Positions 1-44,070 of a stretch of 64,000 bases of DNA are shown piece by piece. The DNA comes from Hydractinia symbiolongicarpus (taxonomy: Eukaryota; Cnidaria; Hydrozoa; Anthoathecata; Hydractiniidae): the NCBI RefSeq assembly GCF_029227915.1, contig NC_079880.1:23376501-23440500 (forward strand), read 5' to 3'. The notes beneath the pieces were generated by a model. That model searched no databases and had not been told where the DNA came from. It saw nothing but the letters and a program-made list of their open reading frames with translations. How positions within the stretch are numbered: the stretch's first letter is position 1; each line of letters opens with the position of its first letter. The translations under genes and the position numbers were made by a program.

Positions 1-264
1 TTTTCTACTTGTCCCTTACCCGCCATGTTTGTTTTAAATGCTCATAGCTATGTCATACTCCTTAATACCGCAATAAAGGTTATCATTCAAAAGAACATTT
101 TTGGCAGCAATGGGCCTCGTGTAAATTTTTTATTTTAAATTTAATTTCATAAAAAAATTGAATTAGTTTGGATTGAAATGAAAAAAGGTAAATCGAATTC
201 ATTTTTATAAAAAAACAAATTAAAATTAAATTGACTTTGATTTTTTTTTCTTATTTAATTAGAA

Positions 265-3012
265 TGAGTGTCACAGTTACGACGGCAGAAGTAAAAGTGA
301 GGGCCATGATGGGCTCGCACCAACACGGTAAAGGTGGGTTAGGTCTGTGTCCGAGAGCTAAAATGCCTGCTTCCTGACATTGTTACTCTTACAGGAAGCT
401 AATAACAAACACTGCAAAGGAAATAAAAGAAGAAGAACAAGTAGGTAGAGTTACGCAACTTCAGGTGCAAGGGCACTGGAGTAAATGGAATAACTACATC
501 AAGCACGATCTCTCCTGGAAATCCTTGTTGGCAATGCAACCAAACTTAGTGTCATTCTGCTTAAGTTCGACCTACGACATTCTTCCTTCCCCGGGTAATT
601 TAAAGCTTTGGCGGATATCCACTGAATCCTCTTGTTTTTTTATGTGAAAAAAAATTGTGCACCACAGCTCACATCCTAGGTGCCTGCAAAACTGCTCTTG
701 CACAGGGTAGACTTACATTCCGCCACGATTCTGTTTTAAAACAACCTGTGGAGTTGCTCACTACTTTTTGTAAGTCCATTACGTCACCTGTAAAACAGCT
801 AAATAGCATTAAGTTTATTAAGGCTGGTGCCCACACTCCTGGTAAAAAGTCTACATCTTGCCTGCGACTGGATGATTTTGTCTAACTTAACCCTATTAGG
901 TCTGGGTTTTTTTTAACATACTATGACCGGGGGAGCGGAATCGCTCCCCTCAATAACTTTTCATAGGGTTGTTTAAATTGAATCAAACTTGGCACACTTA
1001 TAGTACGTCATAAAAAGAACAAAATGGCAGCAATAAATTTTTGCGTCAGCACATTTTCTGTGACGTCATCAGAAGCTTGAAATTATCTATCTGCTTAAAA
1101 TTTAATTACTTTTGTTCCAGATCGAATTTTTGTATTCTGTTTGAAGTTTCTGAAAGCTAAATAAAAGTTATTTAACATATTTTCCGGTTTTTACGTGTAT
1201 CGAATAAAAAATTGCAAAAAATTACCCGAATATCCGGTTTTTTCCGACTTTCGGGTAAAATCCGACAAAATCGGGAAATCGGATTAATCACGTGTCCAAA
1301 TTATGCAAAATGATTCTTCTTAATAAAATAAAGTTGTGTTGCAAGTTTCAAACTCTAAAGATAATCCTAACAGGAGTTATTAAATTTTAGCCATCATAAG
1401 GATTTCATAGAGATTTTTAGGGGTAGCTTCGAGTAATGGGCAATGTCCAACTCTCTGAAAGGTATGGGACGTAAAAATTTGGCATGCAGGTGCCTAATAG
1501 ATAAATATTGAAACTCAATAAATTTCATAGCCAAATAACCTAGCAATAAGGTGTTTTTTAAAAAAAACCGTCAGGGAGAAGGGGGGGTGGGGGGCAGAAA
1601 ACGCCCCGGACTGAATAGGGTTAAAGGACGGATTTGCTTTCCCTGGGCATATTGCTTTAACATCACTCAGGCCAGATGTCGTTATCTATTCCAACAACAA
1701 GAAGCATGTGATTGTGATGGAGCTTACCTGTCCATGCGAGGAAAATATGGAAACTTGGCATTCAACTAAGATGTCCAAATGCAATCCTCTGGTGAACATC
1801 ATCAAACAAAACGGTTGGCATACAGATCTTTTTGCCAACGAAGTAGGTGCCAGCGGCTACTGCTCTCGATCTGTTTCTTCGTGTTTAAAAAGACTGGGAT
1901 TGGATCGCAGAAAAACTTTTCAAGCTGCTCGTCAACTTGGTGAAATGTGCATGAAAGCTTCTTTCTGTATTTGGGTCGCTAGAAATACAAAGGTATGGAA
2001 TGAACACAGCCACATCCCTATTTCAACCAACTATTCCATACCCACTCCTCTAATGCCAAAGGCCAAACAACCAACAGTCACCAAGCCCAGTACACCTGTT
2101 AAAGCAGGCCTAGACCAACCTACCCAAAGCAAAGTAATTTACGCAGGATTAATGAATAAAAGAAACACCTGTTACGCCAATTCCATCCTGCAAGCATTAA
2201 CTGCAATCCCATCATTTTGGTCACATTTTGCTTCGGAATCTTCTCCTGTTTCTCCTCTATTGAAGTCTTTTATGCTGAGTATGTCCATGCCGTCCCAGTC
2301 TTCCACAGCTGTTGACCCTTCCCCCTTCTTAAGAGCCTTGCAGCGTGAGATGTCCAGCATTAGGAAGACCCCATTCAACATTAATACCTAGCAGGACGTG
2401 CCAGAAATACTGCTTCATGTCTTGGGTGAATTACCAGGCCCTTCGGTTATCGCAAATAATATCATCATTAACATAACCACTACGACGTCTTGCAATGCAT
2501 GCTTCTTATCAACTAGCAGGGAGGAAAGTATGCCTATTGTGCCACTCCCTATCTCAAACAGCGTTACAGGTTCAATTAATTGTTTTTTGCAGCCCGAAAA
2601 TTTGTCTGGAAATGACAGGTGGCTTTGCCTGCAGTGCTCTTCTTATCAAGAAAGTACAAGCGAAACGGTTTTCACCCAGTGTGGAGACATTCTAATTATC
2701 CAACTGAAGAGGTTTACGTTTCTTGATGGAAGAACCCTAAAAAATAACAAATTTGTTACCTGCCTTGCTTCAAATGATGACATTTTTAGAGTTCTCTCTC
2801 TGCCAACGGATGACATATCATTTAACAACAAATATTCGTTAGCTGCCACTATTAATCATTCGGACACCCTAGAAGCAGGTCACTATTGGGCATTCATTAA
2901 AGATCGCAGATGTGGCTCATGGTTAAGATGTGACGATAAAGCAGTTGTTAGAGTTGCACCATCCGATTTAAATAACTCTTCTGTGTATGTGTTGTTTTTT
3001 GTGAAAATGTAA
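265..3012 (+). pseudogene. RLE-USP retrotransposon copy, 5'-truncated and broken (knuckle, endonuclease, ubiquitin protease)
   Basis: This is the C-terminal half of an R2-like LINE protein. The RT part is absent, so the copy is 5'-truncated, as is usual for LINEs. In order it shows the pre-knuckle segment (QGHWSKWNNYIKHDLSWKS, near 470-530), a CCHC-type knuckle (TTAHILGACKTAL) followed by RFTFRHD, the RLE motifs RPDVVIYSN and ELTCPCEEN (about 1670-1750), and a USP domain. The USP has the Cys box NTCYANSILQAL (about 2165-2200), QDVPEIL, the zinc-ribbon pairs CNAC and CLQC, and the His box AGHYWAFIKD (about 2875-2905). Breaks are a frameshift near 640-655 beside a poly-A run, a 730-bp MITE at 891-1620, and a TAG at 2389-2391 where other copies have a sense codon. 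The frame is continuous across the MITE target site. Domain calls rest on motifs and on alignment by eye to the copy at 33438-38904. Confidence 0.85.
891..1620. mobile_element. piggyBac-type non-autonomous element (MITE) with TTAA target duplication
   Basis: A 730-bp insertion is flanked on both sides by TTAA (887-890 and 1621-1624). Its ends are inverted repeats: CCCTATTAGGTCTGGG on the left, and CCCTATTCAGTCCGGG read inward from the right. TTAA duplication plus ends starting CCC are the hallmark of piggyBac elements. No transposase frame is present inside, so it is non-autonomous. It sits inside the RLE coding region of the surrounding retrotransposon copy and is therefore younger than that copy. 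Confidence 0.85.
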
Positions 3013-3506
3013 AAATTGTCTGATTAACATTCACATAAAGGGGGAGGGTTATCTTTCCCTAGCGGTTTTGTATTACCCGGCTGTTTCTGTCACAAGCAGT
3101 CTACCGTGAACCTAGAGTTTGCTCACTCTTCACTCTCTTATAGAGTAATCATAAGAACCATAGCAAGGGGGTTTGACTATATCTTGTCTTTGGGTGCGAC
3201 GAACCCACTTTTTACCCCAGTCCAGTAGGGAGGCCAAGTTTGCTCACTTGGTCTACAGGGTTAACGATCCTGCTGTACCCATAGTTATTCTTGTAAGAAG
3301 CTCTGCAAGGGTTTGTGAAATTTCTCTTTCATGTCTTCGTAGTTTTACGCCCACGCATATCACCCCAGTAACTTCAGGCTGGTCCTGACCAAGGCTGGTC
3401 CTTAGCATCAATCACCTGTGTAAGGCTGAGTGTTGGGATCCCGTAACACGTGTAAAGCTACAGCCAGGTTCACAAGTCCTGGCGCATAGGTAGTTGTTTG
3501 CCCCCT
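3013..3506 (+). repeat. 3' UTR of the RLE-USP copy, with internal repeats
   Basis: The sequence is clearly related to the 3' UTRs at 32634 and 38096. It contains two related subunits of about 130 bp, each with a GCAAGGG box, a TCTTGTCTTTGGG or TGTCTTCG-like box, and a final ACCCCAGT. It ends after a conserved GCTACAGCCAGG...CACAAGTCCTGGCGC segment, where the next, divergent copy begins. The distal part with two hairpins seen in the other copies is missing here. Confidence 0.75.
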
Positions 3507-3544
3507 TTTTATAGTTTTTGTTTATTTGTATATATATACGTTTT

Positions 3545-4890
3545 ATGTCAATGTGAAGAGAACACGGAATATTGGCACAAACGAAAGCTTAACAAATATT
3601 CTTCACTTTGCTATGCTATGAAAAACAATGGATGGATCGTGCATTTCTTTGCCATTGAGGTGGGTGCAAGGGGTTTCTGTTCAGAATCAGTAAGGACCTG
3701 TTTTCGTCGCCTTGGTTCCCCTAACAAGCCTTTACGTTCCCTATTAAAATCCCTAACTTTTACCTCCATGAGTGCTTCTTTTTACATCTGGATGTCTCGA
3801 AATTCTACCACTTGGGTTGAGCCTGAAAAGGCCCCAATCATTCTTGAAGTTTCTTCTGTTACAAATATGGAATGTAAGAAATCAAACACCCCTGAGAAAT
3901 CTTCCGCAAATCACACAAAATCTTGTAAAATCAAAAAAACCGAAAAACTTGCTACAAGGTCTTCTAAAACAACAGTCGCATTGCCATCTAACCCTGATTT
4001 TAGGAATAGCGGTCTAAAAATCTTGGGAAACACATGTTATGCAAACTCCATCTTACAATGTTTTTATAACCTTCCAAAAGTTAAAGAAGCCATTTCTGTC
4101 AGCAAAACAACCTCAAAGTTTGGCTGTTTCTAGAAGTCCAGTTGCTCCCTCCCATTTTTTGCGTGCTATGAAACATCATATCTCAGCTGCGAAGGGAAGT
4201 GCATTTAATATCTTTGCTCAGCACGACGTCCCCGAGGTTCTTGAATATCTCCTACCTGGTCTGTCATTAGACTTTCCATTTCTTGGAAGTCTTTTTAGTA
4301 TTGGCATCAAGACATCAACCACTTGCAATTCATGTCATATTACCAGCTCCTCAGAAGTTATAGCACCATGCATCCAACTTTCTCTGCACCCTACGTTACA
4401 ATCTTCCTTAGATAATTTCTTCGAAAGCGAGGAGTTGTCAGACGCCAATGCCTACTTCTGCCATGTTTGCAACGCTCATCAAACTGCTCTAGTTGAAAAA
4501 GAGGTAGTGTCGTGCGGTTCCCATCTCATTTTACAGCTAAAACGTTTTGCCAGTGCCAACGGCCTTGTGTCAAAAATTGCCTCTCGTATTACTGCTTACC
4601 CTGGTACCCTTTCCATACCTTTAACCGTAGATGGAGAAGTGAAATTTCGTAAAAATTTTCAATTAACCAGTCTTATCAACCATTGCGGCAACTTAAATAA
4701 TGGTCACTACACAACCATAGCCTTCGACCAAATTGTACACAGGTGGATACATTGCAACGATAGAGCAGTAATTTGCTGTGATGACCGCCTTATTAACAGT
4801 CACAAGTCATATGTTATCGTATCATCAATGAAATTGAGCCAGCAACATATGTCAACATCAAATTCTGAGTCGTATCACGAGGGGAGATAA
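3545..4890 (+). pseudogene. Divergent RLE-USP retrotransposon copy (endonuclease end plus ubiquitin protease)
   Basis: This second, clearly different subfamily member lies head-to-tail behind the first. It starts inside the RLE domain (CQCEENTEYWHKRKLNKYS, then EVGARGF and SFYIWMSRN), followed by a serine/lysine-rich linker and a USP domain. The Cys box is LGNTCYANSILQCF (about 4022-4065), with a frameshift near 4090-4130. The second frame then carries FLRAMKHHI, QHDVPEVLEYLL, the finger pairs CNSC and CHVC, LILQLKRF, and the His box NNGHYTTIAFD with HCNDRAV (about 4697-4775). Catalytic Cys and His and the zinc pairs are kept despite the strong divergence. The upstream RT part is missing. Confidence 0.82.
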
Positions 4891-9530: not shown

Positions 9531-9545
9531 AAGCACATCAAAAAT

Positions 9546-10440: not shown

Positions 10441-10453
10441 CGTGCTATTGATC

Positions 10454-12720: not shown

Positions 12721-12728
12721 CTGACATA

Positions 12729-21571: not shown

Positions 21572-21858
21572 AAATTTATCCATTTCATGATATTCACGTT
21601 ATGATCACTTTTATTTATCTAATGTTTACTTACTTATTCATTTTGAATTGCTGCCATATTTGTTGTTTTGTGTTGTGTTCTGTGGCAGTTGTATTTTTCT
21701 GGTTCTCTTTACGGTCAATGGTTTTAGGAATTTCCTACAAAAGGGGCGCTTTTGCTTTCTTAAAAAATATTTATAGAATTGCAACCTCTAAATATAGTAG
21801 ACCGACTGTCATTAGACAAGTAATATCATTGCAGCTAGCTGTTTTGTCACCTCATCAA
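21572..21858 (+). mobile_element. 5'-truncated 3' end of an RLE-USP-type element
   Basis: About 290 bp match the last part of the 3' UTR at 33150-33437: TATTCACGTTATGAT, TTATTTATCT, TCATTTTGAATTGCT, GTGTTGTGTTCTGT, GTATTTTTCTG, then a hairpin remnant and GCTAGCTGTTTTGTCACC ending CTCATCA. Divergence is visible in many bases, so this is an older copy than the two at 32-39 kb. It lies next to the gag remnant on the opposite strand. Confidence 0.75.
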
Positions 21859-23070
21859 TCATCTACATCACTTCCTTTTCTTTTTTCTTGGGCTTTGTCT
21901 AGCTTCTGACAATGATTAGAACAATGAAAGTCAGCTTTATAATCTGTAAAACGTCTATTTACAGGTTTTTTTGTACAATATTTACATAACTTTAGTTTTT
22001 GTTTTATATGGGCTTTGTCTTCAAGAGTGGAAGGGATGGGTTGCCCAATCATCTTCTCCCCATCAGTTTTGGGTCATCTTGTGCATTACATTGTCTCGCA
22101 TAATGCTCTCCTAAACCACACTTCAAGGAGTGTTTGCATTGTTTACTATTGCTCTCCTAAAAAATACCACACATTCTCCCACCCTGTCTGCTAAATCTTT
22201 TCGGTCTGGGGTTTTCACTATTTAATTTCTCAATTTCCTTTTGTAACTTTTGCACAGACACTGCCAGAGACGCCATTGCAGCAACAACTTCTTGGTCAGT
22301 CACTTCTACCTTGTTAACTTTTGCACGCCTTTTGTCCGGAACTTTCTTGAATAGAATTTCTCTCCTTTTCTAGGTTTTGCAGCCTTAGCAACAGCCTCAA
22401 TTAAATTCTCATCTGCTGTACCTGTTCTTAACAAAGGTCTAAGTTCATTTAAAAGTGAAGTGCTAGATAATCATTTTCCAGAGTGCGATAAAACAATTTA
22501 CCAACAAGAGCTAGATCATACGGTTTTTCAGACCTACGAGATGCAAACAGAACCTTTTGGCGCATTTCTATACATCTTATAACAAAATTTTATGCAGATT
22601 CGTCAGTTGTGCCATGTTAGTCAACTTGCTACTGAGCTCAGTAGTATTATGCTCATCAAAATGGGCTTCTATAAAGGATTCTAGTCTTTTCAGACTTTGA
22701 GTTGACTCTAAAACATTTCTGAGGTCAGGCTAGGTGTCACAGATCTAATCACTGAATTTATTATATCAATCCCCTCGTCATATCCTCCCAATTTTGCATC
22801 CCCAATTTGTTTCATGATTCTTCAAACGCCAGCTTACCCCTTTGTCCTGGCTCGCCTATCTGACTCATACTTTTTAGATCTTTCCTGAGCAAGCTATTTC
22901 ACTTGCTCAGGAAAGAGACAGGCTCAAGACACTGACTAGTTCATCGCTCTTACCCTTTTCCTCTGCACTTCTTATTGTAGATTCACCAGTAGCAGCTTCA
23001 ACTTCTTTCTCTTGTGTTGTGGTAACTTCAGGTGACTTCTTCTTTTCTTACTTAAAACACATATACATGG
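21855..23070 (-). pseudogene. LTR-retrotransposon gag-like remnant with zinc knuckle
   Basis: Reading the minus strand through several frames gives coherent protein. A Lys/Glu-rich N-terminal segment (KKSPEVTTTQEKEVE, about 23010-23040) leads into ESTQSLKRLESFIEAHF and IRCIEMRQKVLFASRRSEKP. Then come LLNELRPLLRTGTADEN, VTDQEVVAAMASLAVSVQKL, and a knuckle-like stretch CKHSLKCGLGEHYARQC. The 3' part reads LKLCKYCTKKPVNRRFTDYK. Stops and frameshifts are frequent, so this is an old pseudogene. The arrangement (helical capsid-like part, coiled coil, CCHC-like knuckle) suggests Gag. No pol or LTR was found next to it. Confidence 0.5.
22880..22915. repeat. Perfect 14-bp inverted repeat, 8-nt loop
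   Basis: CTTTCCTGAGCAAG at 22880-22893 and CTTGCTCAGGAAAG at 22902-22915. It lies inside the gag remnant and may be a recent duplication or foldback. Confidence 0.9.
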
Positions 23071-25877: not shown

Positions 25878-26179
25878 CGCGAATTTATCGGTTTTGTTTT
25901 CTGGTTCTCATCTTGTCTTGAGCACTTCACCAATCTCTGGTTTCCGAATGCCTTTGTACTCGTGATATCCCTTTACATGACTGGTCAGTCTACTTTATTA
26001 TTTGGAAGCTCATTTTTCACACAAATAATTGAAATTATTTTCTGTTCATTCATTTTAAAGAAACTATTGCCATCGTTCCGTTGTCAGTTTAAACCGTATT
26101 TATTTAGCTTTATTGAATGTGAAAGGTAAACTATTCTGTAGCCTTATCTCCAAACGTTTAGAGACACACATCATAAAAA

Positions 26180-26420
26180 AATGATTTCATCAACAAAAGT
26201 ATTCAGAAAGGCTGTATGGAAAAGGTTTCTGGCTGTTGAGGGCATATGTCCCTAGTTTGGTCGGTATTAAAATCTAAGACTGACAAAGATTCTGTTTCAG
26301 CTATATAGCTGGATGTAGCTAATGCATACCCTTCAGTTCCGCACAAACTTATCTTATATGCTTAAGAACGTTACAATGTATCACCTGGATAGAACTTATT
26401 TAGACAGACCCTGTTAGATT
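26180..26420 (+). pseudogene. RT fragment of an RLE-USP-type retrotransposon
   Basis: The plus strand reads INKSIQKGCMEKVSGC, then HMSLVWSVLKSKTDK and LDVANAYPSVPHKLILYALE. These correspond to QKGCMEKVPGCWEHMSMVW and LDIANAYPSIPHKLIFFALE in the full-length copy at 34950-35120. Several stops and frameshifts are present. Similarity fades past about 26420. Confidence 0.75.
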
Positions 26421-31439: not shown

Positions 31440-31635
31440 TGTTGAATTGACCATGTGACTTGAACACGTGACCTTTACACGTGCGCTCACTTTTGTATAT
31501 ATTTTTCTGTTTATATTTTTGAAGAGTTTAATTAGATTTTACTTCTTGTTGAACGAGGTTGTTCTCTTCGGTTAATACCCCCGAAACCTCGTATTCTTAT
31601 TATACAGTCCTCTGATTATAATTGTGGATAAAACA
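31440..31635 (+). repeat. Left (5') LTR of a BEL/Pao retrotransposon
   Basis: 196 bp, TGTTGAATTG...GGATAAAACA, with TG...CA ends. It matches the right LTR at 40174-40347 without substitutions, apart from a 22-bp extra segment here (about 31548-31570). It is preceded by GTTTC, which is repeated after the right LTR. Confidence 0.93.
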
Positions 31636-31982
31636 TTGGTCCACCGAGCCGGATCTATTGTTGGATATAATTATTGATCGTTGGTTTATTTAATCGACAG
31701 TTGCTGAATATTTACTCACATAGAACTTTTGAAATTATACACATAAACATTAGAACATTTTTTGAATTTACAACACTTACAATTTAGTTACTTTTGAAAT
31801 TATATACAAACATGACTGAAGATATCAGTAAAAAGATAAGAGTCTGGTACTAACAGAATAGGATACCTGGAGTTATATGGTACAGGAGCATTTCCTAACC
31901 GACCCCTGCACCTCAGCAAAAAATCTGTGTCTTCAAATAAATCCAGGTTCTTTTCCCAATGTTTAAATTTCTTGTGTCTTTA
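31636..31982 (+). other. BEL/Pao leader with primer-binding region and probable gag start
   Basis: Directly after the LTR comes TTGGTCCACCGAGCCGGAT, a sequence typical of the start of BEL/Pao internal regions. ATG at 31812 begins MTEDISKKIRVW and stops after 14 codons, possibly a broken gag start. The rest up to the RLE-USP fragment is non-coding. Most of gag and all of protease, RT and RNase H are missing before the integrase resumes near 38905. Confidence 0.55.
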
Positions 31983-32633
31983 AACAATAACGCGTTTTAT
32001 CACAATCACCAACAAGATGTGCCCGAGATCCTTCAAGTTGTTTTTGACGAAATTATTGGATCTTCCCCTTTGGTTGACAATCTACTGTCTGTAACTGTGA
32101 CCACAACAACGTCATGCAACTCCTGTTGTTTCTCCACTTCCAGGGAGCAAAAGGATTCAATTTTAATTTTACCAACGTGTAAGTCAATAGCAGACTCTTT
32201 TAACAAATTTTTACAACCTCAAGAACTTCTAGGTGACAACAAGTGGTTCTGCCCCCAGTGTTCATCGCATCAAGAGGCCACAATTGAAACTCAGATTTCT
32301 AATTGCGGCGACTTCCTTGTTGTACAATTGTTAAGATACACATCAGTAAATGGGTCTTCTTTTAAAGACAACAAGTTAGTCAATTGCTTGCCTAAAAAAC
32401 ATCATGTCTTAAAGGTAGCATCTCACCCAACTGACGATGTGTCTTTCAACAACAAGTATAACTTGGTTGCTACCATTAACCACTCAGGTACATTAAAAGC
32501 AGGTCATTACTGGGCCTTCATTAAGGACCAACAAAACACCTTGTTCAAATGCAACGATCGCTGTATTTCTCAAGTAGACACATTCCACTTGAATAATTCT
32601 TCGTCATACATACTTTTCTTTTCCAGAAGTTAG
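31983..32633 (+). pseudogene. 5'-truncated RLE-USP copy: C-terminal part of the ubiquitin protease
   Basis: Nearly identical to 37448-38095. It begins inside the USP domain after the catalytic Cys box (FYHNHQQDVPEILQVVFDEI), keeps the finger pairs CNSC and CPQC and the His box AGHYWAFIKD, and stops at 32631-32633. Differences from the full-length copy seen by eye are one extra Asn codon (NNKYN) and Leu for Trp before FKCND. It lacks the Cys box, so it cannot be an active protease. Confidence 0.9.
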
Positions 32634-33437
32634 CTTATTTGTATGTCACACAACAAATGGGGGAGGGAATCCATGACCCTAGCGGTTTTATTTACCCCAG
32701 CTGATTTATGTTGGTCAGTGCACCGTGAAACCGGAGTTTGCTCACTCCTCTCTTTGTATAGAGACAATGTAAGAAGCACAGCAAGGGGGCTTGATATCAT
32801 ATCTTGTCTTTGGGTTTAACGATCCCACTTATTACCCCAGTCCAGTAGGGAGGCAGAGTTTGCTCACTTTGCTTTCAGGATTGACAATCCTGCTGCCCTT
32901 AGTCATTTTAGAAGAAGCTTTGCAAGGGGGTTACATTTTCTTATCTGGTCTTCGTGGTATTACGCCCACGCATATTACCCCAGTTATGACAGGCTGGTAC
33001 TGTCTTTAGGCAGGTCCACAGCAACAATTATCTGTGTAAGGCTGAGTGTTGGAGCTCCATAACACATGTGGAAAGCTACAGCCAGGGTCACAAGTCCTGG
33101 CGCGCAGATAGTTGTTTGCTTCTTAAACACATTCTCTAAAGAATAATTTTAAATTTATCCGTTTAAGGATATTCACGTTATGATAAGTTTTATTTATCTC
33201 ATTTGTACCTATTCAATTCATTTTGAATTGCTTTAATATTTTTTTTTAGTGTTGTGTTCTGTCGCTGTTGTATTTTTCTGCCTTTTACGGTCAATGTTTT
33301 TAGGAAATCCTTGCAAAAAGGGGGATTTTGCTTTTTTGAAAAATCTCTAGAGGGTTGCAACCTCTAACTATAGTAGAACCAGCTGTCATTAGACAAGAAA
33401 TATCATTACAGCTAGCTGTTTTGTCACCTCATCATCA
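32634..33437 (+). repeat. 3' UTR of the truncated RLE-USP copy
   Basis: About 800 bp, nearly identical to 38096-38900. It has two related subunits of about 130 bp (about 32690-32840 and 32841-32990). A distal part follows with two hairpins (CCTTGCAAAAAGG at 33309-33321 and TAGAGG-N7-CCTCTA at 33348-33366) and the terminus TGTCACCTCATCATCA. The next copy begins right after. Confidence 0.85.
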
Positions 33438-33700
33438 ATTGCTGTTCACCGTAACGGTTTCATGGCTGCTAGGAAAGACTAGCTGACCCTGGGAAAGACT
33501 AGTGACGCTGGGAAAGACCAGATGCGCTCCTTAAATACCTTGACCGTTAATGGACTATTCTTTCGGATTTGATTTTAAAAATTCTTTTACTCGGACCTCA
33601 ATCTACGGTACGCGCCAATAGATGAATGGCTAATAGGTTAATTAGTCCCTAGCGAATCCTCGCAGTAGTGGCGACACTGTGAAAATTATAGCTTAGCCCT
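33438..33700 (+). promoter_or_regulatory. 5' UTR of the full-length RLE-USP element
   Basis: This unique sequence lies between the tail of the previous copy and the first large ORF. It holds three tandem units of about 19 bp around GGAAAGAC (33472, 33492, 33511; for example CTGGGAAAGACTAGTGAC). LINE promoters are internal, so any promoter should lie here, but no core motif is certain. R2-like elements often have a self-cleaving ribozyme at this position; I could not confirm one. Confidence 0.5.
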
Positions 33701-35746
33701 GTGTGCCAGGCAACTCAGGGTGGTCTTTTTGCCCTGTGCATTTTACTCACTGTAGCTATAGATAAATCCTTAACAAACTCTAACAATCGCTGCGGTGAAT
33801 CTGAAATTGATTTTGAGATCACAAATTCAGCATTTCCAAATAGTCCAATAAAACATCCTCCTATTACCAAATGCAAAGTTGTTCTTCAGGATATCTTCCC
33901 TAAATGTGGTGCTGAAAAGCTTAAGAAGGTGAATGATTCTCCGGATAAACCCCACACGAGACATTCCCATCACACTGAGGAGAAGTATCTTAATAACTTG
34001 CAGATTAAAACACCAATATCTTGGGGGAAAATGGTTGACGACCGCTGGTCCAATTTGGATAATGCTGCTTCAAATATTCTTTCTAATAAGCTTCATTTGT
34101 GTAATTCCTTGTCCGAAAAAGTAGAACTGCTTGAAGACACCATTTATAATGAGGCAGCACAAATCTTTGGTCACTCAGTTCATAAGGGTGGCAGAAAGCT
34201 GTCAGGAAAAAGCCGAAGAACTATTCAATCCATCAATCTAATTAAAGAGAAAAATTCCCTAACTAGTCAAATACAGTCATCCTGCTACCTAAGTCAAAGG
34301 AAGGAATTACACCAACTTCTTACGGATGTAAAAGGTCGAATAACTTTATTGCGCCGAGCTGAAAGGTCTAGAAAAAAACGCCACCAATTCAAAAAAGCCC
34401 AGACCGCCTTTAAGAACAATCCATACAAGGCAGGAAAAGACCTTCTTGACCCGAAGTGCAAATCAGTTTTAATGGTCGAACAAGAAACGCTGGATAACTT
34501 TAAACTTGAATCAGTTAAAGACAAATTGTATGATGTACCTTTAGGTAATCTAGATGGGTTATCATCCACTCCACCTCTTTTGAAATCGTTTCCAGTTTCT
34601 CTCTTTAAATATGAAGATTTTATGAAAGTTCTTGGCACTCGGCGAAATGGCTCTTCCCCAGGTATCAATGGGATACCTTATAAAGTTTATAAAAAATGTA
34701 ATAAAGTAAATACTGTTTTGTTTAATGTTTTTAAGTCTTGTTTCAAAAATTGTGTTGTCCCTATTCAATGGCGTTGTGCTCGTGAAGTTTATATTCCCAA
34801 ATCAAAAACTCCTATGGAGTCTAATATTAAAGACTTTCGACCTATCGCATTATTAAATGTCGAAGGCAAGCTTCTATTTAGCCTTGTATCAAGGCGATTA
34901 GAAGCTCACATTATACATAATAACAAATTCATTAACACGTCGGTTCAGAAGGGTTGTATGGAGAAAGTCCCAGGATGCTGGGAACACATGTCAATGGTTT
35001 GGTCTGCACTTAAAGAGGCCCGGGCCAACAAATCACACCTTGCAAATATATGGCTGGATATTGCAAATGCATATCCTTCAATTCCACACAAGCTTATATT
35101 TTTTGCACTGGAAAGGTATGGAGTCCCTCAGAGTTGGATATCATTCATTAAGTCATACTACGTTGGTTTATATAGCAAATCCTTTTCTTTGTCTGCACCA
35201 AGCAACTGGCACAAGCATATGCGAGGTATTTTTGCAGGTTGCACTCTTTCCATCATTTTGTTTCTTGCTGGTATAAACATTATTCTTGAATACACTATTG
35301 CGGCACCGGCCCCAAATTATATTACTTCTAAAAACGTGCCCCTTCCTTTAGTCAGAGCTTTTATGGATGATATCAACCTAATGTCATCCTCTGTCTGTGG
35401 AGCTCAAAGCCTCCTTTCCAGGTGCGTCACTGCTTTAAAATGGGCTGGCATGAGTTTTTGCCCTCGTAAGTCAAGGAGCATAATCCTTATAAAAGGTAGA
35501 TCTGTAAACTCCACACCTTTTTCTGTGTCTCACATCTCGTCACAAACCGACTTCTCTTCATTCATCCCGTCAATCTATTCATCGCCAGTTCGTTTTCTCG
35601 GTCGCATTATTGATGGTACGATTTCAGATGCTAAAGCAATCGACGAGCTAGATAATAAGCTAATAACCGGTCTTACAATCATAAACGGTTCGTGTTTCAA
35701 AGGGACCCAAAAACTATGGATTTTGCAAAACCTTCTAATTCCTTGA
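33701..35746 (+). CDS. R2-like reverse transcriptase part of the RLE-USP retrotransposon
   Basis: 681 residues ending at a TGA (35744-35746) that is in frame with the downstream RLE-USP ORF. RT blocks in order: GTRRNGSSPGINGIPYKVYK, then EVYIPKSKT...FRPIALLNVEGK, QKGCMEKVPGCWEHMSMVW, ANIWLDIANAYPSIPHKLIF (first catalytic Asp, about residue 450), HMRGIFAGCTLSIILFL, and RAFMDDINLMSS (catalytic FMDD, about 553-556). The N-terminal third is Lys/Ser-rich with no clear zinc finger or Myb motif, so the true start could lie elsewhere. The block pattern fits RLE-type LINEs of the R2/NeSL/Utopia group. It synthesises cDNA at the nicked target. Confidence 0.85.
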   Translation: MCQATQGGLFALCILLTVAIDKSLTNSNNRCGESEIDFEITNSAFPNSPIKHPPITKCKVVLQDIFPKCGAEKLKKVNDSPDKPHTRHSHHTEEKYLNNLQIKTPISWGKMVDDRWSNLDNAASNILSNKLHLCNSLSEKVELLEDTIYNEAAQIFGHSVHKGGRKLSGKSRRTIQSINLIKEKNSLTSQIQSSCYLSQRKELHQLLTDVKGRITLLRRAERSRKKRHQFKKAQTAFKNNPYKAGKDLLDPKCKSVLMVEQETLDNFKLESVKDKLYDVPLGNLDGLSSTPPLLKSFPVSLFKYEDFMKVLGTRRNGSSPGINGIPYKVYKKCNKVNTVLFNVFKSCFKNCVVPIQWRCAREVYIPKSKTPMESNIKDFRPIALLNVEGKLLFSLVSRRLEAHIIHNNKFINTSVQKGCMEKVPGCWEHMSMVWSALKEARANKSHLANIWLDIANAYPSIPHKLIFFALERYGVPQSWISFIKSYYVGLYSKSFSLSAPSNWHKHMRGIFAGCTLSIILFLAGINIILEYTIAAPAPNYITSKNVPLPLVRAFMDDINLMSSSVCGAQSLLSRCVTALKWAGMSFCPRKSRSIILIKGRSVNSTPFSVSHISSQTDFSSFIPSIYSSPVRFLGRIIDGTISDAKAIDELDNKLITGLTIINGSCFKGTQKLWILQNLLIP

Positions 35747-35893
35747 ATCCAATGGCCAATTCTTATTTATGAAGTTCCAATATCTCCGGTTACAAGGCTG
35801 GAGCAGAAGATATCAACTTTCATTAGAAAATGGCTATCTCTGCACAATACCACGTCAAATATTTGCCTATATAGCTCCTGCTCGCCTTGTCCA

Positions 35894-38095
35894 ATGCCAA
35901 TTAAGAGCTTGACGTCATTGCTTACATGCTCTAAAATAAGTGGTCATTTACTTTTACGCGACTCCAAAGATCCTCTTGTGTCTAACAGTGCACCTACTTT
36001 GAAAGTTGGCATGTGGAAAGTGGACAACGCAGTAAGAACAGCAGAGGCAGAGGTGAAAATAAAGTCAGTCGTGGGAACTCCCCAGTATGGAAAATCAGGC
36101 CTAGGGATCAACAAATCTTTCAAAATTCCGATTTCAAAACAGTGCTATGCGTATCGTAAATTAATATCGAACACAGCTAAAGATATCGATGAGGAAGGCA
36201 ACATGGGTAGAGCATTGCAGTTGCAAGTGCAGGGTCAGTGGACGAGATGGGAAAATTACACAAAAAACGATCTATCTTGGAAGTCCATTTTTGCCATGTC
36301 CCCACACTTGCTTTCCTTCTGTCTTGCTTCTACTTACGATGTTCTTCCCTCACCTAGCAATTTAAAGCGCTGGAACGTTTGTACTGAATCTGCTTGTGCC
36401 TTATGTTCCAAACAAGTATGTACAACAGCGCATGTTTTAGGCGCTTGCAAGGTTGCTCTATCACAAGGAAGGTTCACTTTCCGACACGATGCTGTGCTTC
36501 GCGGGCTACTGTTAAGTCTACAGCGTTTTTCATCTGAAGTTGTCCCGGAAACGAAAAAGCACCTTAAAGTGTCATTTGTAAAAGCAGGTAGCTATTCCTC
36601 CGCTAAAAGATCAAAACCAACTGGTCTATTCCACCATGCTAGTGACTGGGTGATGTTAGCAGATCTGAATGAAGGATTTGTGTTTCCTGGCCATATTGCG
36701 ATCACATCCCTCAGGCCAGACATTGTAATATACTCAAATTGTTCTAAGCGCATCATCATTATTGAACTTACTTGTCCTTGTGAGGAAAACATGGGATCCT
36801 GGCATTCCACCAAGCTTTCCAAATACTTCCCTTTGGTCGAGGTAATACGTAGCAACGGGTGGTTTCCGCATCTTTTTGCAGTAGAAGTGGGTGCTAGGGG
36901 CTACTCTTCAAGGTCTCTAACTTGCTGTCTAAAAAGCCTCGGTTTCGCTAGCAAATCTGCGTTTTTAACCGCCCGCAAGCTTGGCGATATAAGCATGAAA
37001 GCATCCTTTTGCATTTGGATTGCACGAGACTCACCACATTGGTCACAAGATCTTACGCACTGCAGTCCGCCAACATTGCCACGACCAAAGGATAGTATAC
37101 CTCATGAAAAATCCTCGTCTGTTACCAAATCCATTAAAAGTCCATCTTCAGCCATCTCCGACATGCCAAAACCCACGGAACACCATAACCTTAGCCAGGA
37201 ACTTAAACAAAAGGTGAGCATCGTTCACGCTGGTTTGATAAACAAGGGGAACACATGCTACGCAAACTCCATTTTGCAAGCATTAACGGTTCTTCCAAGA
37301 CTTTGGTCTCAATTACCATCAGAGTCCTCTTTGTCATCTCCTCTAGTAAAGTCTATAGTCCTAAATATGTCACTACTGAATCGTTCTCGTTCACCAATTG
37401 ATCCTTCCAATTTCTTACGAGCACTGCAAAACAGAATGCATGCTCTTAACAATAACGCGTTTTATCACAATCACCAACAAGATGTGCCCGAGATCCTTCA
37501 AGTTGTTTTTGACGAAATTATTGGATCTTCCCCTTTGGTTGACAATCTACTGTCTGTAACTGTGACCACAACAACGTCATGCAACTCCTGTTGTTTCTCC
37601 ACTTCCAGGGAGCAAAAGGATTCAATTTTAATTTTACCAACGTGTAAGTCAATAGCAGACTCTTTTAACAAATTTTTACAACCTCAAGAACTTCTAGGTG
37701 ACAACAAGTGGTTCTGCCCCCAGTGTTCATCGCATCAAGAGGCCACAATTGAAACTCAGATTTCTAATTGCGGCGACTTCCTTGTTGTACAATTGTTAAG
37801 ATACACATCAGTAAATGGGTCTTCTTTTAAAGACAACAAGTTAGTCAATTGCTTGCCTAAAAAACATCATGTCTTAAAGGTAGCATCTCACCCAACTGAC
37901 GATGTGTCTTTCAACAAGTATAACTTGGTTGCTACCATTAACCACTCAGGTACATTAAAAGCAGGTCATTACTGGGCCTTCATTAAGGACCAACAAAACA
38001 CCTGGTTCAAATGCAACGATCGCTGTATTTCTCAAGTAGACACATTCCACTTGAATAATTCTTCGTCATACATACTTTTCTTTTCCAGAAGTTAG
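35894..38095 (+). CDS. Restriction-like endonuclease plus ubiquitin-specific protease (C19) part of the same retrotransposon
   Basis: 733 residues from the first Met, in frame with the RT across one TGA and 49 open codons (35747-35893). A CCHC knuckle (CALCSKQVCTTAHVLGAC, about residues 169-190) precedes RFTFRHD. The RLE follows, with RPDIVIYSN (about 274) and ELTCPCEEN (about 290). After a Ser/Pro/Lys linker comes a complete USP domain. Its Cys box is KGNTCYANSILQAL (Cys455), then HQQDVPEILQVVFDEI, the zinc-ribbon pairs CNSC and CPQC, FLVVQLLRYTS, the His box KAGHYWAFIKD (His692) and FKCNDRC (Asn708/Asp709). All catalytic and finger residues are present. USPs remove ubiquitin, so the element might protect its own protein or cDNA intermediate; that role is inference. 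Confidence 0.88.
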   Translation: MPIKSLTSLLTCSKISGHLLLRDSKDPLVSNSAPTLKVGMWKVDNAVRTAEAEVKIKSVVGTPQYGKSGLGINKSFKIPISKQCYAYRKLISNTAKDIDEEGNMGRALQLQVQGQWTRWENYTKNDLSWKSIFAMSPHLLSFCLASTYDVLPSPSNLKRWNVCTESACALCSKQVCTTAHVLGACKVALSQGRFTFRHDAVLRGLLLSLQRFSSEVVPETKKHLKVSFVKAGSYSSAKRSKPTGLFHHASDWVMLADLNEGFVFPGHIAITSLRPDIVIYSNCSKRIIIIELTCPCEENMGSWHSTKLSKYFPLVEVIRSNGWFPHLFAVEVGARGYSSRSLTCCLKSLGFASKSAFLTARKLGDISMKASFCIWIARDSPHWSQDLTHCSPPTLPRPKDSIPHEKSSSVTKSIKSPSSAISDMPKPTEHHNLSQELKQKVSIVHAGLINKGNTCYANSILQALTVLPRLWSQLPSESSLSSPLVKSIVLNMSLLNRSRSPIDPSNFLRALQNRMHALNNNAFYHNHQQDVPEILQVVFDEIIGSSPLVDNLLSVTVTTTTSCNSCCFSTSREQKDSILILPTCKSIADSFNKFLQPQELLGDNKWFCPQCSSHQEATIETQISNCGDFLVVQLLRYTSVNGSSFKDNKLVNCLPKKHHVLKVASHPTDDVSFNKYNLVATINHSGTLKAGHYWAFIKDQQNTWFKCNDRCISQVDTFHLNNSSSYILFFSRS

Positions 38096-38904
38096 CTTAT
38101 TTGTATGTCACACAACAAATGGGGGAGGGAATCCATGACCCTAGCGGTTTTATTTACCCCAGCTGATTTATGTTGGTCAGTGCACCGTGAAACCGGAGTT
38201 TGCTCACTCCTCTCTTTGTATAGAGACAATGTAAGAAGCACAGCAAGGGGGCTTGATATCATATCTTGTCTTTGGGTTTAACGATCCCACTTATTACCCC
38301 AGTCCAGTAGGGAGGCAGAGTTTGCTCACTTTGCTTTCAGGATTGACAATCCTGCTGCCCTTAGTCATTTTAGAAGAAGCTTTGCAAGGGGGTTACATTT
38401 TCTTATCTGGTCTTCGTGGTGTTACGCCCACGCATATTACCCCAGTTATGACAGGCTGGTACTGTCATTAGGCAGGTCCACAGCAGCAATTATCTGTGTA
38501 AGGCTGAGTGTTGGAGCTCCATAACACATGTGGAAAGCTACAGCCAGGGTCACAAGTCCTGGCGCGCAGATAGTTGTTTGCTTCTTAAACACATTCTCTA
38601 AAGAATAATTTTAAATTTATCCGTTTAAGGATATTCACGTTATGATAAGTTTTATTTATCTCATTTGTACCTATTCAATTCATTTTGAATTGCTTTAATA
38701 TTTTTTTTTTAGTGTTGTGTTCTGTCGCTGTTGTATTTTTCTGCCTTTTACGGTCAATGTTTTTAGGAAATCCTTGCAAAAAGGGGGATTTTGCTTTTTT
38801 GAAAAATCTCTAGAGGGTTGCAACCTCTAACTATAGTAGAACCAGCTGTCATTAGACAAGAAATATCATTACAGCTAGCTGTTTTGTCACCTCATCATCA
38901 TCAT
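38096..38904 (+). repeat. 3' UTR and terminus of the full-length RLE-USP element
   Basis: Same organisation as 32634-33437, with a handful of base differences. Hairpins CCTTGCAAAAAGG (38772-38784) and TAGAGG-N7-CCTCTA (38811-38829) lie about 100 bp from the end. The terminus is TGTCACC followed by a (TCA)n run, after which the BEL integrase frame resumes. Confidence 0.88.
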
Positions 38905-38911
38905 TCGACAT

Positions 38912-39943
38912 GTGCATGAATCTGTGAAGCATTATGGCACAAAAATAACACTCACAGAACTTAGAAGAGAAATTTGGATTCCATCTGGTAGAAATGTTGT
39001 TAGAAATTTTATTCGTACATGTCAAAAGTGCCGAAAGTACGAGAACAAACCATATCCGTACCCAGATCCTCCATCATTACCGAAGAGTAGATTACAAGAT
39101 AACATGTCATTTGAAGTAGTTGGCATCGACTATGCTGGTCCTTTATTTGTAAAAAATGTTTTTAACGAAGAACCAGATATGTATAAAGCTTGGATAGTTC
39201 TTATAACGTGTGCGAGTACTAGAGCTATTCATTTAGACTTAGCTTCGAATTCTTCTGGACCTGAATGTATAGAAGTTCTGAAACGATTTATTGCTCGAAA
39301 AGGAGCACCGAACTTCATTTTATCTGACAATGGTAAATGTTTTATTAGCGAAGACGTACAAAACTTTGCTGCTAGTAAAAATATTAATTGGAAATTTAAT
39401 ATTGAGTCTGCCCCTTGGCAAGGCGGATTCTTCGAACGTTTGGTCAAATCAGTCAAAAGACCACTGAAGAAAGTTCTGGGCAATAGTCGCCTGAAGTATA
39501 ACGAACTTTTAACGATACTAACTGAAATTGAATTTATACTAAATAACAGACCATTAACGTACATATATGAAGAACTTACTGAAGAACCATTAACACCTAA
39601 TCATCTTATGTATGGAAGAAAATTAAACACGAAAGCAGATGAGAACAACTTAATACCTGAAGATCTCTCGGCTGATATGAGTGTCAAACGGAAAGAAAAC
39701 GTAAACCGATTACTGACACACTTTTGGAATAGATGGCGTGACGAATACGTCACAGAATTACGAGAATTCCACAAATTGAAGAATAGTCGTTTCAATAAAT
39801 GTTTAATTCCAAACGTTGACGACGTAGTTGTTGTTGCTGATGATAGAATGCCACGATCACAATGGCGAATTGGTCGAATAAAAGAAACGTTGAAGGGAAA
39901 AGATGGAAAAATACGTGCAGCGATAATACAATGCAAAAACTGA
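38912..39943 (+). pseudogene. BEL/Pao integrase and C-terminal DUF5641-type domain
   Basis: Reads VKHYGTKITLTELRREIWIP, a zinc-binding tail CQKCRKYENKPYPYPDPPSL, and the integrase core: VVGIDYAGPLFV (first Asp), FILSDNGKCF (second Asp), PWQGGFFERLVKSVKRPL (Glu), and EFILNNRPLTYI. The DUF5641-like end follows (RFNKCLIPNVDDVVVVADD, then SQWRIGRIKE). This is typical of BEL/Pao. A frameshift near 39940 moves the end (RSNLRRPINKLIPFEQC...) into another frame, running to about 40139. All upstream pol is missing, replaced by the RLE-USP pair. A purine-rich tract (CTGGGGGAA, 40165-40173) precedes the right LTR. Confidence 0.88.
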
Positions 39944-40173
39944 TCAAGACAGACGATCAAATTTACGGCGACCGATCAATAAATTGATACCGTTTGAACA
40001 GTGTATTATTCCAAACGATGAATCAACAGAACCAGCAATACAATTTATTGATGAACAATCAGTTACACAAAACGATCAGTTAGCTGAATCAAAGATAACA
40101 TTTGTTGATGAAAAGGATCTTGAGATTGTAAACATTTGAGATGACAAGTTTTGACCTCCGTCAACTGGGGGAA

Positions 40174-40347
40174 TGTTGAATTGACCATGTGACTTGAACA
40201 CGTGACCTTTACACGTGCGCTCACTTTTGTATATATTTTTCTGTTTATATTTTTGAAGAGTTTAATTAGATTTTACTTCTTGGTTAATACCCCCGAAACC
40301 TCGTATTCTTATTATACAGTCCTCTGATTATAATTGTGGATAAAACA
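40174..40347 (+). repeat. Right (3') LTR of the BEL/Pao retrotransposon
   Basis: 174 bp, starting TGTTGAATTG and ending GGATAAAACA. It is followed by GTTTC, the 5-bp target duplication also found before the left LTR. It lacks the 22-bp segment present in the left LTR. Confidence 0.93.
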
Positions 40348-42465
40348 GTTTCCTATAACATAAATCGTGTTATCGTCAGCATAATTGCATATATCGCTGG
40401 TGACAAAAGATAAAAAATCATTCAAAAAGATGTTGAAAAGGAGAGGTCCTAGCACAGATCCTTGAGGGACACCGAAAGTCATTTCAAGCCATTCGCTAAA
40501 AGAGTTTGCCAGTCTGATACGTTGCTTCCTATTTTTCAGATAGCTAGCCACAAGTTTTAAAGCCGAAAAACTTAAACCATAGGCATATAACTTCGCTATG
40601 AGAAGATCATGGCTAATACAGTCAAAGGCTTTTGATAGATCCATAAAGATAGCTCCAACTTTTTGTTTGGCATCTAATGCTCCTCGCACTTTCGAGAACA
40701 TACGCAAGAGAGATTGTTGAGTACTAAAGCCCTTTCGGAAACCACATAAATACGGAGATAGTTTATCACAGAAAAAACCCATAAGTTGTTTATATAGAAG
40801 CTTTTCAAATATTTTAGAGACCACAGGCAAAATACTTATAGGTCGAAAATTTTCTTTAGCTGATGGATCGCCTTTTTTAAAAATTGGACAGACTTCGGCA
40901 CATTTTAAATCATTTGGAAATTCAGAATCCTTAATAACGGTGTTGTTAAATATGCTAACGAGACTTTGATAATATAAACTATAATAATCTTTCAAAATTC
41001 TACTCGGAATATCACCAGCAACATTTGATTTGGATTCATCTAATTTCTTCATTTCTTCCCACATTTCACTTCCCGTTGTTGGACTAAATTCGAATCTCGC
41101 AATATGGTTATATCTCTCATTGATTTTTTGGATACTCGGATGTAATTCGTATTTATAAATAGCATTCAGAACGTAATCATGTGAATCTGTTGAAACATCA
41201 GGCCATCGATATAACTTCAATGAACTGATAACCTTTTGAAAATAAGAGTTGAAGATATTTGCTATGTCTTCATCACTCGAGATAATACACTCATTTTCGA
41301 TAAGAATGATTTTCTTTTGGTTTGATGAATCATCACTGACAAATGGCTTCACAGTACGCCAAAAACATTTGTTATCTGTTATCTTCTTAGTATTAAGGTT
41401 TGAATAGTAAGTAAATTTGGCCTTTCTCGACAGCTTGACACAAAGATTTCGTTGTATTTTATACTGCTTGATGTTTTCAGCTGAAGGAGATGATATCGAT
41501 TTATTGCGTAGTCTGGAACGCAGCATGATAGCCTTTCGCAAATTCTTGTTCATAAATGGTTTATTATTCGATCGCAAGATTTTCTTTTTAAGTGGCATAT
41601 GATTATCTAATATATTTTTGAAAGTGTTATTAAATTGTTCATACGTGGTTATATTTTGCATCCTGTTGGTCAATTCTGATATAAATATCTCTTTATTAAA
41701 ATGAGAGTAGTCATGATAATTCACAACTTTCGGTGGAGCTTTTACATAAGTAGTTTTCATAACAGTTAGCACCATTCTGTGAAAATCTGAAAGACCAGTT
41801 TCGATAGTACTTGTGTGTTTAAACGTCCTTCCAATATTAGTTAAAATCAGATCAATACATGAGGGATTTGATGCTGATTTAAAACATGTTTTTTCTTTTA
41901 TTAGATTAGACAAATCGAAGGCACTCATAAACTCTGACATTTCATCACTATCTGGCTCCAGGTTAAAATCGCCCATTACGATAATGTTTGAGTAATGTCT
42001 CATGTGAAAATTAAGTGCATTCGTGATATTTGAGAGGAAAAAGTGTGTGCATTGTGACGGTGGACGATAAGTGTACAGCAATAGGTACTTCTTCTTCCTT
42101 AGGTTTATCTCCAACGTAATCAGTTCTATTCCATTCTGTACCTTGAATGAAGTCAGTTCTTTAGTAAGAAGATTTTCATTTGCAAAGATCATCAAACCTC
42201 CACCATTTTTATCCCGGTCACGGCGAAAGGGGAGCTTGAATCCAGGCATGTCAAATTGACCTACCGGGAAAGATAAATCTACTTTTGTTTCACATATGCA
42301 GAGAATATCGATGTTGTTTTCCACAAACTCTTTCAGGAAGTCAAATTTATTTCGTATTGAGTTGATATTCACGTGGGCAATAATAACATTCTTAGGATTT
42401 TTTATCCGTAAATTTCTCAAAGAAGGTAAAGTATTGGAAAGGTTTTGACTGTCATTCACATTCAT
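40348..42465 (-). pseudogene. LINE A ORF2: APE endonuclease and reverse transcriptase (5' part)
   Basis: A CR1-type LINE polyprotein, intact until cut by the BEL LTR. EN blocks: HVNINSIRNKFDFLKEFV, DILCICETKVDLSFP (catalytic Glu), IIVMGDFNLEPDSDEMSEF, CIDLILTNIGRTF and GLSDFHRMVLTVM. RT blocks: SNVAGDIPSRILKDYYSL, EVCPIFKKGDPSAKENFRPI, GFRKGFSTQQSLLRMF, GAIFMDLSKAFDCISHDLLI (first catalytic Asp), FGVPQGSVLGPLLFNIFLND and CNYADDNTIYVIG (YADD). The last residues before the stop at 40312 are read from the LTR. The remainder lies at 30613-31439. The start is 21 nt after the ORF1 stop. Confidence 0.92.
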
Positions 42466-42486: not shown

Positions 42487-44070
42487 TCATTCATTTTGAT
42501 ATTTCTTTAGTGTGTCAACAAATTTTTGGGATAGCAACAAGGTTCCTTTTCGATTCAGATGAAGATTACTTCGGTTTAGATGAAGTTTTGGAGATATAGT
42601 ATGAGTAATAAAACAAATGTTTCGCTCCTGGCATTTTGATTTGAGTAGCTCGTTTACCGCTTTGACCTTTACATTATATCTGTCTTCGCGTTCAATGATT
42701 CCTGATATGATAACATTGGTTTTATCACTCATTTTCAAAGCCAGAGACAAAATATCATTGCAGATTTGATGATGAGTCTTTTTAGATGGTATGTCGTTTG
42801 TACCGACATGCAAAATAACTCTATTAGGCTTTTGGTTTAGTGAGGGGATCACATGATGATTCATCGCGTCTATTTTTGCTCCGGAGAATGGTTTAACAAT
42901 AACTTTTGTCTTATCGTTGAATTGATTCCCAAGCTTCCACCCTTTAACATCCTTTATTATGGAATCTTCTCCCAATATATATGTAACATCATTATCACAA
43001 TCAACTTTCTCGGTATCCGATTCAATTGATGTATTTAAATGGCTAGGACGGGATTCTATTTTATAACCGGCTAATTGTTGTAGACGTTGTTTTCTGCTTT
43101 TGACGGTAATTTCTTGCATCGCATTAAACTCTTCGTGCTTCTTTTTTCTTATAGACTGTAATTGGTTTTCAATGTTTGTTTCAATACAACCATCAGACTT
43201 AATTGAATCGTTTTGTAAATCTTTAAAATGTTCATTGTCAGTATGATTAGAGGATAATGATTCCGTATAATTGTTTTGGGAGTTTTGCGGTAATTGTTTG
43301 TGATGTAAAAAATTAATACAAGTATCTTGTGAAGAGCTAGAATGCTCGTCATGCATTAGTGATTTCTGTATAAACAAATCTATAATAGTATTTTTTGAGC
43401 TCACCTCTTCCTTCAAAAATTTAATTTGGTCTTCGAGTGATTTAATATAACTTCGTTGTGTTGAAATATTACTTTCGTCGTCCAATAATGGAGTATAACC
43501 ACGCCTCAATTTACGAAATTCCATTTTTATGATATCTTTCAGAGATTCATTCAGATCCGCAAATAATTCAGATTTCAACTTTTCATTCATTTTGTTCAGC
43601 GCTTCAAGATGGTAGTCAGTCATTGATACGTCGTTCTCACTTTCTACATAGGATGTATTTAGTGAAACATTGAGAAACGGGAGAACAGTATGAAGACATC
43701 GATCACACATTGTTTCGTACGGTACTCGAGAATTCGTAACCAAGTGTTGTTTATTTTGGCATACTGCATGTGAAACATCGAGGCATTGACTACATAATAG
43801 ACGTTTTTGGTTACATCTCACTACTTTAGAACAAGTACTGCATTTAGGAGCGACGAAACCAGGTCCTGGATTAACTTCAATATCACCATCAAGATTAAAC
43901 GTGGCACTGCAATTTGAATAATACAATACCCGTGATTTCCCTCTTTTAAGATGTCTCGTTTGGGTATTCTTTGGTAACGACGGTAATGAAGTTTCATAAT
44001 GTACTTGTTGATCACTGGAACTAATTACGAATGTTGTTAAAATTAATGTGTAAAATAGAATTTTTCTCAT
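42487..44070 (-). CDS. LINE A ORF1: 2A peptide, zinc-finger region, coiled coil and SGNH/esterase domain
   Basis: 527 residues, intact. The N-terminus is hydrophobic (MRKILFYTLILTTFVISSS), signal-peptide-like. It is followed at about residues 61-70 by DGDIEVNPGP, a complete 2A ribosome-skipping motif. A PHD/RING-like Cys-rich region follows (CSTCSKVVRCNQKRLLCSQC, then HAVC and CDRCL). Next come a Glu/Lys coiled coil (about residues 150-230) and a polar linker. The C-terminal SGNH-type esterase domain shows GAKIDAMNHHVIPSL, VILHVGTND and LHLNRKGTLLLSQKF. CR1-type LINEs are known to carry an esterase in ORF1, and 2A peptides are known at the start of some animal LINE ORFs. Skipping would release a short leader from the nucleic-acid-binding ORF1 protein. 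Confidence 0.9.
   Translation of the reverse strand: MRKILFYTLILTTFVISSSDQQVHYETSLPSLPKNTQTRHLKRGKSRVLYYSNCSATFNLDGDIEVNPGPGFVAPKCSTCSKVVRCNQKRLLCSQCLDVSHAVCQNKQHLVTNSRVPYETMCDRCLHTVLPFLNVSLNTSYVESENDVSMTDYHLEALNKMNEKLKSELFADLNESLKDIIKMEFRKLRRGYTPLLDDESNISTQRSYIKSLEDQIKFLKEEVSSKNTIIDLFIQKSLMHDEHSSSSQDTCINFLHHKQLPQNSQNNYTESLSSNHTDNEHFKDLQNDSIKSDGCIETNIENQLQSIRKKKHEEFNAMQEITVKSRKQRLQQLAGYKIESRPSHLNTSIESDTEKVDCDNDVTYILGEDSIIKDVKGWKLGNQFNDKTKVIVKPFSGAKIDAMNHHVIPSLNQKPNRVILHVGTNDIPSKKTHHQICNDILSLALKMSDKTNVIISGIIEREDRYNVKVKAVNELLKSKCQERNICFITHTISPKLHLNRSNLHLNRKGTLLLSQKFVDTLKKYQNE
43861..43890 (-). other. 2A ribosome-skipping motif
   Basis: Codons spell DGDIEVNPGP, matching D-(V/I)-E-x-N-P-G-P exactly. 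The skip point would be between the last G and P. Confidence 0.92.

Follow-up and report, generated by a model that had tools for sequence, protein, structure and literature searches.

A clade of RLE LINEs in Hydractinia symbiolongicarpus with a C-terminal C19 ubiquitin-specific protease

The window, a stretch of 64,000 nucleotides (64 kb) from contig NC_079880.1 of Hydractinia symbiolongicarpus, contains one near full-length LINE, El1, together with diverged or truncated relatives (Table 1). The reverse transcriptase (RT) half of El1 (33701-35743) and its ubiquitin-specific protease (USP) half (35747-38092) lie in two ORFs, split by a single TGA. The first matches RVT_1 (E=1e-17) and the second matches the Pfam UCH model from end to end (E=5.4e-33, model positions 1-254 of 254), so the frame of El1 runs on into a complete C19 ubiquitin-specific protease. 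RLE LINEs are recognised by a CCHC knuckle and by RHD and RPD...E motifs. All of these stand behind the RT of El1 and are kept between families; the zf-RVT model matches El1 and the intact copy L012 below cut-off only, and no Pfam RLE model is matched. The original prediction, made from El1, of an RT-RLE element with an in-frame C19 domain is borne out by the UCH and RVT_1 matches and by seven intact fusion ORFs elsewhere in the genome, and the catalytic residues and both zinc pairs lie where it had placed them. The profile searches of El1 and L012 list no OTU or C48 match in place of C19. An APG12 (ubiquitin-like) match, below cut-off in both (E=0.0048 and 0.042, respectively), was judged to be chance.

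Table 1. Features of El1 and related copies within the 64-kb window.
Feature	Position	Strand	Basis or remark
El3, diverged, decayed family member	1..3501	+	sequence comparison
El3 parts: RT-half piece; RLE+USP; TAG; 3' UTR	258-656; 1621-3009; 2389; to 3501	+	
El4, 5'-truncated and more distantly related (RLE end + USP)	3507..4890	+	one frameshift
Short 3'-terminal copy of El1-type element	21572..21863	+	84% identical
RT fragment from related element	26104..26380	+	sequence match
El2, 5'-truncated copy (USP part + 3' UTR)	31983..33437	+	99.45% identical to El1, immediately upstream
El1, near full-length RT-RLE-USP LINE	33438..38904	+	single in-frame TGA
Reverse transcriptase domain (RVT_1), with FMDD	34793..35605	+	profile match
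In-frame TGA breaking El1	35744..35746	+	reading of frame
CCHC knuckle, between RT and RLE	36395..36448	+	motif; zf-RVT below cut-off
RLE region (RHD, RPDIVIY, ELTCPCEEN)	36482..37060	+	motifs; kept across families
C19 ubiquitin-specific protease domain	37217..38092	+	Pfam match 37229-38083
Catalytic Cys455	37256..37258	+	motif in El1 USP
First zinc pair CNSC	37580..37591	+	motif in El1 USP
Second zinc pair CPQC	37715..37726	+	motif in El1 USP
Catalytic His692	37967..37969	+	motif in El1 USP
Catalytic Asn708/Asp709	38015..38020	+	motif in El1 USP
El1 3' UTR, terminal sequence TCATCATC	38096..38904	+	parts common to several families

El2, El3 and El4 all contain the USP; in amino acids, El3 is 51% and El4 33-37% identical to El1. 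The families have in common 41 bp of the 3' UTR (3182-3222, 32802-32842 and 38264-38304), a stretch that recurs outside the copies found, at 14167-14207 (88%), and that may be an RNA feature which the RT recognises.

The same architecture is found throughout the 480.9-Mb assembly (76 contigs). The UCH profile gave at least 150 matches there (149 of 1015 candidates scored) and none in 14 control genomes, and the El1 USP used as a query gave at least 138 (134 of 1306 candidates scored). Seven loci of family A (L009-L014 and L016) have open frames that are 1423-1426 aa long, or 1418-1421 aa when counted from the first Met, each with RT and USP in one reading frame. These near full-length copies differ pairwise by 9-17 mismatches over ~5.37 kb and are therefore young. 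FMDD, the Cys box, the His box and the C(N/D)DR box are kept in all seven, and both zinc pairs in six, L016 being without one zinc cysteine. In L012, a 1420-aa stretch (the intact ORF minus its last residue) matches RVT_1 at 334-604 (E=8.3e-16) and UCH at 1132-1418, with zf-RVT below cut-off at 823-887. Family B includes a 1422-aa open frame containing RLE and UCH (L015) and a 1379-aa frame (L017) with a change beside the catalytic Cys and the Gly of GHY lost. In family D, whose RT is 42% identical to that of family A, the RT, RLE and USP occur together at one locus, spread over several broken frames. The RT-RLE-USP arrangement is thus common to four diverged families, and the copies have a common 3' end and are 5'-truncated at varied points, as RLE LINEs are. 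Tandem units also occur: near 23.68-23.70 Mb of C13 (L030 and L031), five RLE matches lie ~5.3 kb apart, with frameshifted USPs at both loci, and at L005 a D-type RLE-USP piece comes after an RLE-USP unit, resembling El3-El4 in the window. According to the available portion of the Hydractinia genome paper, R2/R4/NeSL elements make up 0.18% and CRE/SLACS elements 0.17% of the genome (PMC10411563); the word 'ubiquitin' is absent from its main text.

As to class, the RVT_1 matches mark the RT as that of a LINE, and the description of El1 as R2-like stands for the RT and finds no counterpart in the target. Among solved structures, the L012 stretch matches R2 at 284-715 (E=2.2e-19), a likeness to R2Tg and others that covers about 430 residues of RT and extends to the single ORF. 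In R2 the CCHC motif precedes the RLE. The Hydractinia element differs from R2 in its added USP and in the varied flanks of family A, and neither an rRNA match at the Rfam gathering threshold within the window nor a target in the 28S gene, the R2 site, was found. No N-terminal zinc-finger or Myb match to Pfam was found in the L012 stretch, although short fingers can escape Pfam. A second comparison is with the RLE LINEs already known to carry proteases, the nematode NeSL families and Utopia-1_TSP, which have an N-terminal Ulp1 domain (PMC4640811, as far as its accessible text goes). They resemble the Hydractinia element in combining RT, zinc finger and RLE with a SUMO/ubiquitin-type cysteine protease. 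However, their protease is Ulp1-like, N-terminal and found in nematodes, whereas the hydrozoan element has a C19 protease at the C-terminus, behind the RLE; no C48 match is listed for El1 or L012. Further parallels come from DNA transposons described in the accessible part of PMC2836005. Ginger1 elements, many of them in Hydra, bear a C-terminal OTU or Ulp1 domain and so likewise join a mobile-element enzyme to a C-terminal protease in a hydrozoan host, but the enzyme is a DDE transposase and the protease is not C19. The Trichomonas protein XP_001314237.1 (Transposase_11 + Peptidase C19) does fuse C19 to a mobile-element enzyme, but this is a protist DNA transposase with neither RT nor RLE. 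The consulted portion of PMC7650587 makes no mention of protease or ubiquitin. A search of open-access literature turned up no RLE LINE described as carrying C19, which agrees with the original prediction; on that literature, a C-terminal C19 on an RLE LINE seems new, whereas protease-bearing RLE LINEs as such are already known.

Two unrelated families of isopeptidase-type domain occur on RLE LINEs, N-terminal Ulp1 in NeSL/Utopia and C-terminal C19 here, and OTU or Ulp1 is also found on other transposons. This apparent convergence of protease domains points to ubiquitin/SUMO control as a general barrier to transposition, and the retained USP suggests that ubiquitin removal helps the element to spread. 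Hydractinia, a model animal, has young copies whose frames are intact, so that this question is testable through one catalytic residue. Eukaryotic retroelement proteins are reportedly in use for transgene insertion (PMC11371274), and a natural module that may stabilise a retroelement protein is of interest there.

Comparison with solved structures assigns the element domain to the USP fold. It has the Cys-His-Asn/Asp triad and the two CxxC pairs of C19 proteases, and these catalytic and zinc residues persist in diverged members whose families share 32-57% identity. Identity to solved USPs is about 18-27% in structural alignment. By sequence, the closest are USP8, USP15 and USP2 (for the L012 stretch, USP8 E=5.7e-22 and USP15 E=7.1e-19, best part 1243-1420). 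The catalytic domains of these human proteins share the fold, triad and zinc pairs but belong to host enzymes, are about 24% identical to the element USP in structural alignment, and are less compact than the element domains of about 290 aa. A QQD..E box, which fits modifier tails ending in LRLRGG, is kept in four of seven members scanned (A, B, C and D_L003); the other three read QHD..E or QQH..E or have a stop there. Beyond Hydractinia, no relatives were found in GTDB contigs with patterns from the USP motifs only, and a search of IMG/VR with the RLE-USP protein gave none. A profile search of IMG/VR gave four USP-like loci (24-30% identity), with no RT or RLE match nearby. From its residues, fold and selection, the domain is very probably an active deubiquitinase.

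Two readings would deny the USP a role in the element. It might be an adjacent host gene, or the product of a chimeric reading, as the separation of the two halves of El1 by a stop would allow. The genome-wide counts speak otherwise. The RLE query gave at least 147 matches (144 of 882 candidates scored), which merged into 142 loci; in 61 of these a UCH match is listed no more than 1.5 kb downstream of the RLE, at a median gap of 169 nt among the matches listed. Twenty of the remaining 81, picked for a long RLE match or one reaching the RLE end, were fetched and checked by tblastn, which found the USP in 19 (87-292 residues covered, three under 100) and not in L042, and it is also present, with frameshifts, at two further loci of the C13 tandem cluster. 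The USP therefore lies downstream at 82 of the 83 RLE loci examined among the 142. Conversely, 89 of 150 listed UCH matches have no listed RLE upstream, the remaining 61 having one; the 89 include host genes such as L001, the 5'-truncated copy L003 and loci beyond the RLE matches listed. The sequence 3' of the USP is the element's own 3' UTR, and the element USPs show no introns in the reading. In a tree with six other USPs, a small set of host and virus proteins, the seven element USPs group together with support of 100/99. The intact fusion ORFs at unrelated places in the genome rule out an adjacent host gene, a reading that retains practically no probability. The USP is a retained part of the element, as originally proposed. 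It might still be a passive passenger, caught by chance and carried without function in young families, and in keeping with this many copies elsewhere in the genome are broken by stops and L016 and L017 are altered at zinc or catalytic boxes. Against it stand the retention of catalytic and zinc residues between diverged families, the intactness of all boxes checked in six of the seven young long-ORF copies, and the substitution rates. Between L006 and El3, dN/dS is 0.131 for the USP (bootstrap 95% 0.08-0.20, 285 codons) and 0.062 for the RLE (0-0.16, 118 codons), compared with 0.47 for the linker (0-1.15, 55 codons), whose wide interval overlaps that of the USP; the bootstrap used 300 resamples, those with saturated dS being set to 0. 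A slightly different alignment of the USP gave 0.136 (NG86) and 0.171 (YN00). These ratios come from one pair of copies, and since both are damaged and part of the change is neutral decay, the value for the USP is likely an overestimate. Among the 15 USP pairs, dS is saturated in 12 and one shows no synonymous change; A versus D_L003 gives 0.29 at a dS of 2.9. The USP thus appears, from this one measurable pair, to be kept under purifying selection, and the passenger reading is highly improbable. Selection implies that the USP matters to the element and is silent on which substrate. Of the proposed capture from a host USP, the retention is upheld by the selection seen in this pair, and the one-group tree is consistent with a single capture from a putative host donor; the solved USPs share only the low identity stated above.

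What the USP does for the element can be set out as a model. By analogy with known biology, the protein would bind its own RNA; as in related elements, the RLE would nick DNA and the RNA would be copied by target-primed reverse transcription. The tethered USP would then strip ubiquitin in cis, and the most likely gain would be that the protein and its RNP evade clearance by the host ubiquitin-proteasome system; a second choice is that ubiquitin is taken off chromatin or repair proteins at the nick. Protection from the proteasome and action on ubiquitinated chromatin at the target had both been suggested in the original prediction. There is precedent for a LINE protein, since TREX1 depletes human L1 ORF1p via the proteasome and MG132 rescues it (PMC5416883, from the available text). 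The element's own protein is accordingly the most likely candidate substrate. We consider this explanation as a whole, the fusion architecture with a USP removing ubiquitin in cis and most likely protecting itself, to be reasonably probable, and self-protection from the proteasome as the main benefit to be a tentative, putative choice. If the USP acted instead at the insertion site, it would deubiquitinate histones or repair proteins (H2A/H2B, PCNA or FANCD2) so that target-primed synthesis is completed. Its position close behind the endonuclease would suit this, as would the solved relatives USP21 on the H2AK119ub nucleosome and USP1 with FANCD2, a family resemblance only; however, USP8, USP15 and USP2, the closest by sequence, vary in substrates, and we regard action at the insertion site as somewhat doubtful. 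An extended form seems unlikely: across the whole clade the C19 deubiquitinase would be a constitutive integration module that works at the target site while target-primed reverse transcription proceeds, and full-length copies would be made from templates of several units, whether tandem RNA, circular RNA or exact template jumps from end to end. The protease might also remove a ubiquitin-like modifier other than ubiquitin. USP18 acts on ISG15 and USP36 on FUBI, and both are among the fold and sequence matches (USP36 at 1132-1420 of the L012 stretch); neither is a top match, though, and the QQD..E box is kept in the four members named above, so that we hold such a specificity to be distinctly improbable.

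The full-length family-A starts found by exact match share one arrangement. A search for the exact 27-base 5' start at 16 loci (L009-L024) found eight starts in seven loci, and all eight are directly preceded by the family 3' tail, the junction being TTTTTCATC|TTATTG; El1 likewise follows directly after El2. At the seven main loci (L009-L014 and L016), the piece that precedes the copy is 111-2450 bp long. Four of these pieces (L009-L012) resemble the copy downstream of them more closely than any other, and in the other three there is a tie or another copy is equally close. Six truncated family-A copies (L018 and L020-L024) have no such tail at their start. At the target, the 3' ends of family A vary, while the internal junction is constant; the right flanks of 12 of 13 copies all differ, and L010 runs into another copy. 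The tail-start junctions suit a template that is circular or spans several units, or else exact template jumping from end to end. Multi-unit templates would account for the finding that each full-length start seen comes behind another copy, complete or truncated, across an identical junction. In its available part, PMC2718515 cites end-to-end template jumping for R2 and describes R1 tandem arrays as arising by insertion into target-site duplications. The family-A arrangement differs from such arrays in that its units adjoin with nothing intervening. The idea that L018 abuts the start of another element was found to be wrong, and a search of the L012 5' end for ribozymes and other known RNAs gave only a chance lncRNA match (E=4.2).

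Other mobile elements share the window. El2 and El1 are flanked by LTR-like repeats (31440-31635 and 40174-40347, 88.8% identical), with an integrase at 38912-39943, and probably lie inside an element, presumably BEL/Pao, whose middle seems to be missing (31440-40347). A LINE-like pol ORF, judged by eye (40312-42465), adjoins an ORF on the minus strand (42490-44070) whose GDSL and OSK esterase-type matches are weak and fall below cut-off. At 8904-13478 on the minus strand lies a Helitron-like element (Helitron_like_N 11324-12616, PIF1 8904-9467) with a Herpes_teg_N match (PF04843) at 12732-13478 (E=7.4e-12, above cut-off). This is the family of herpes tegument-type deubiquitinases; a second, unrelated deubiquitinase-type domain thus appears to lie on a different mobile element within the same 64 kb.
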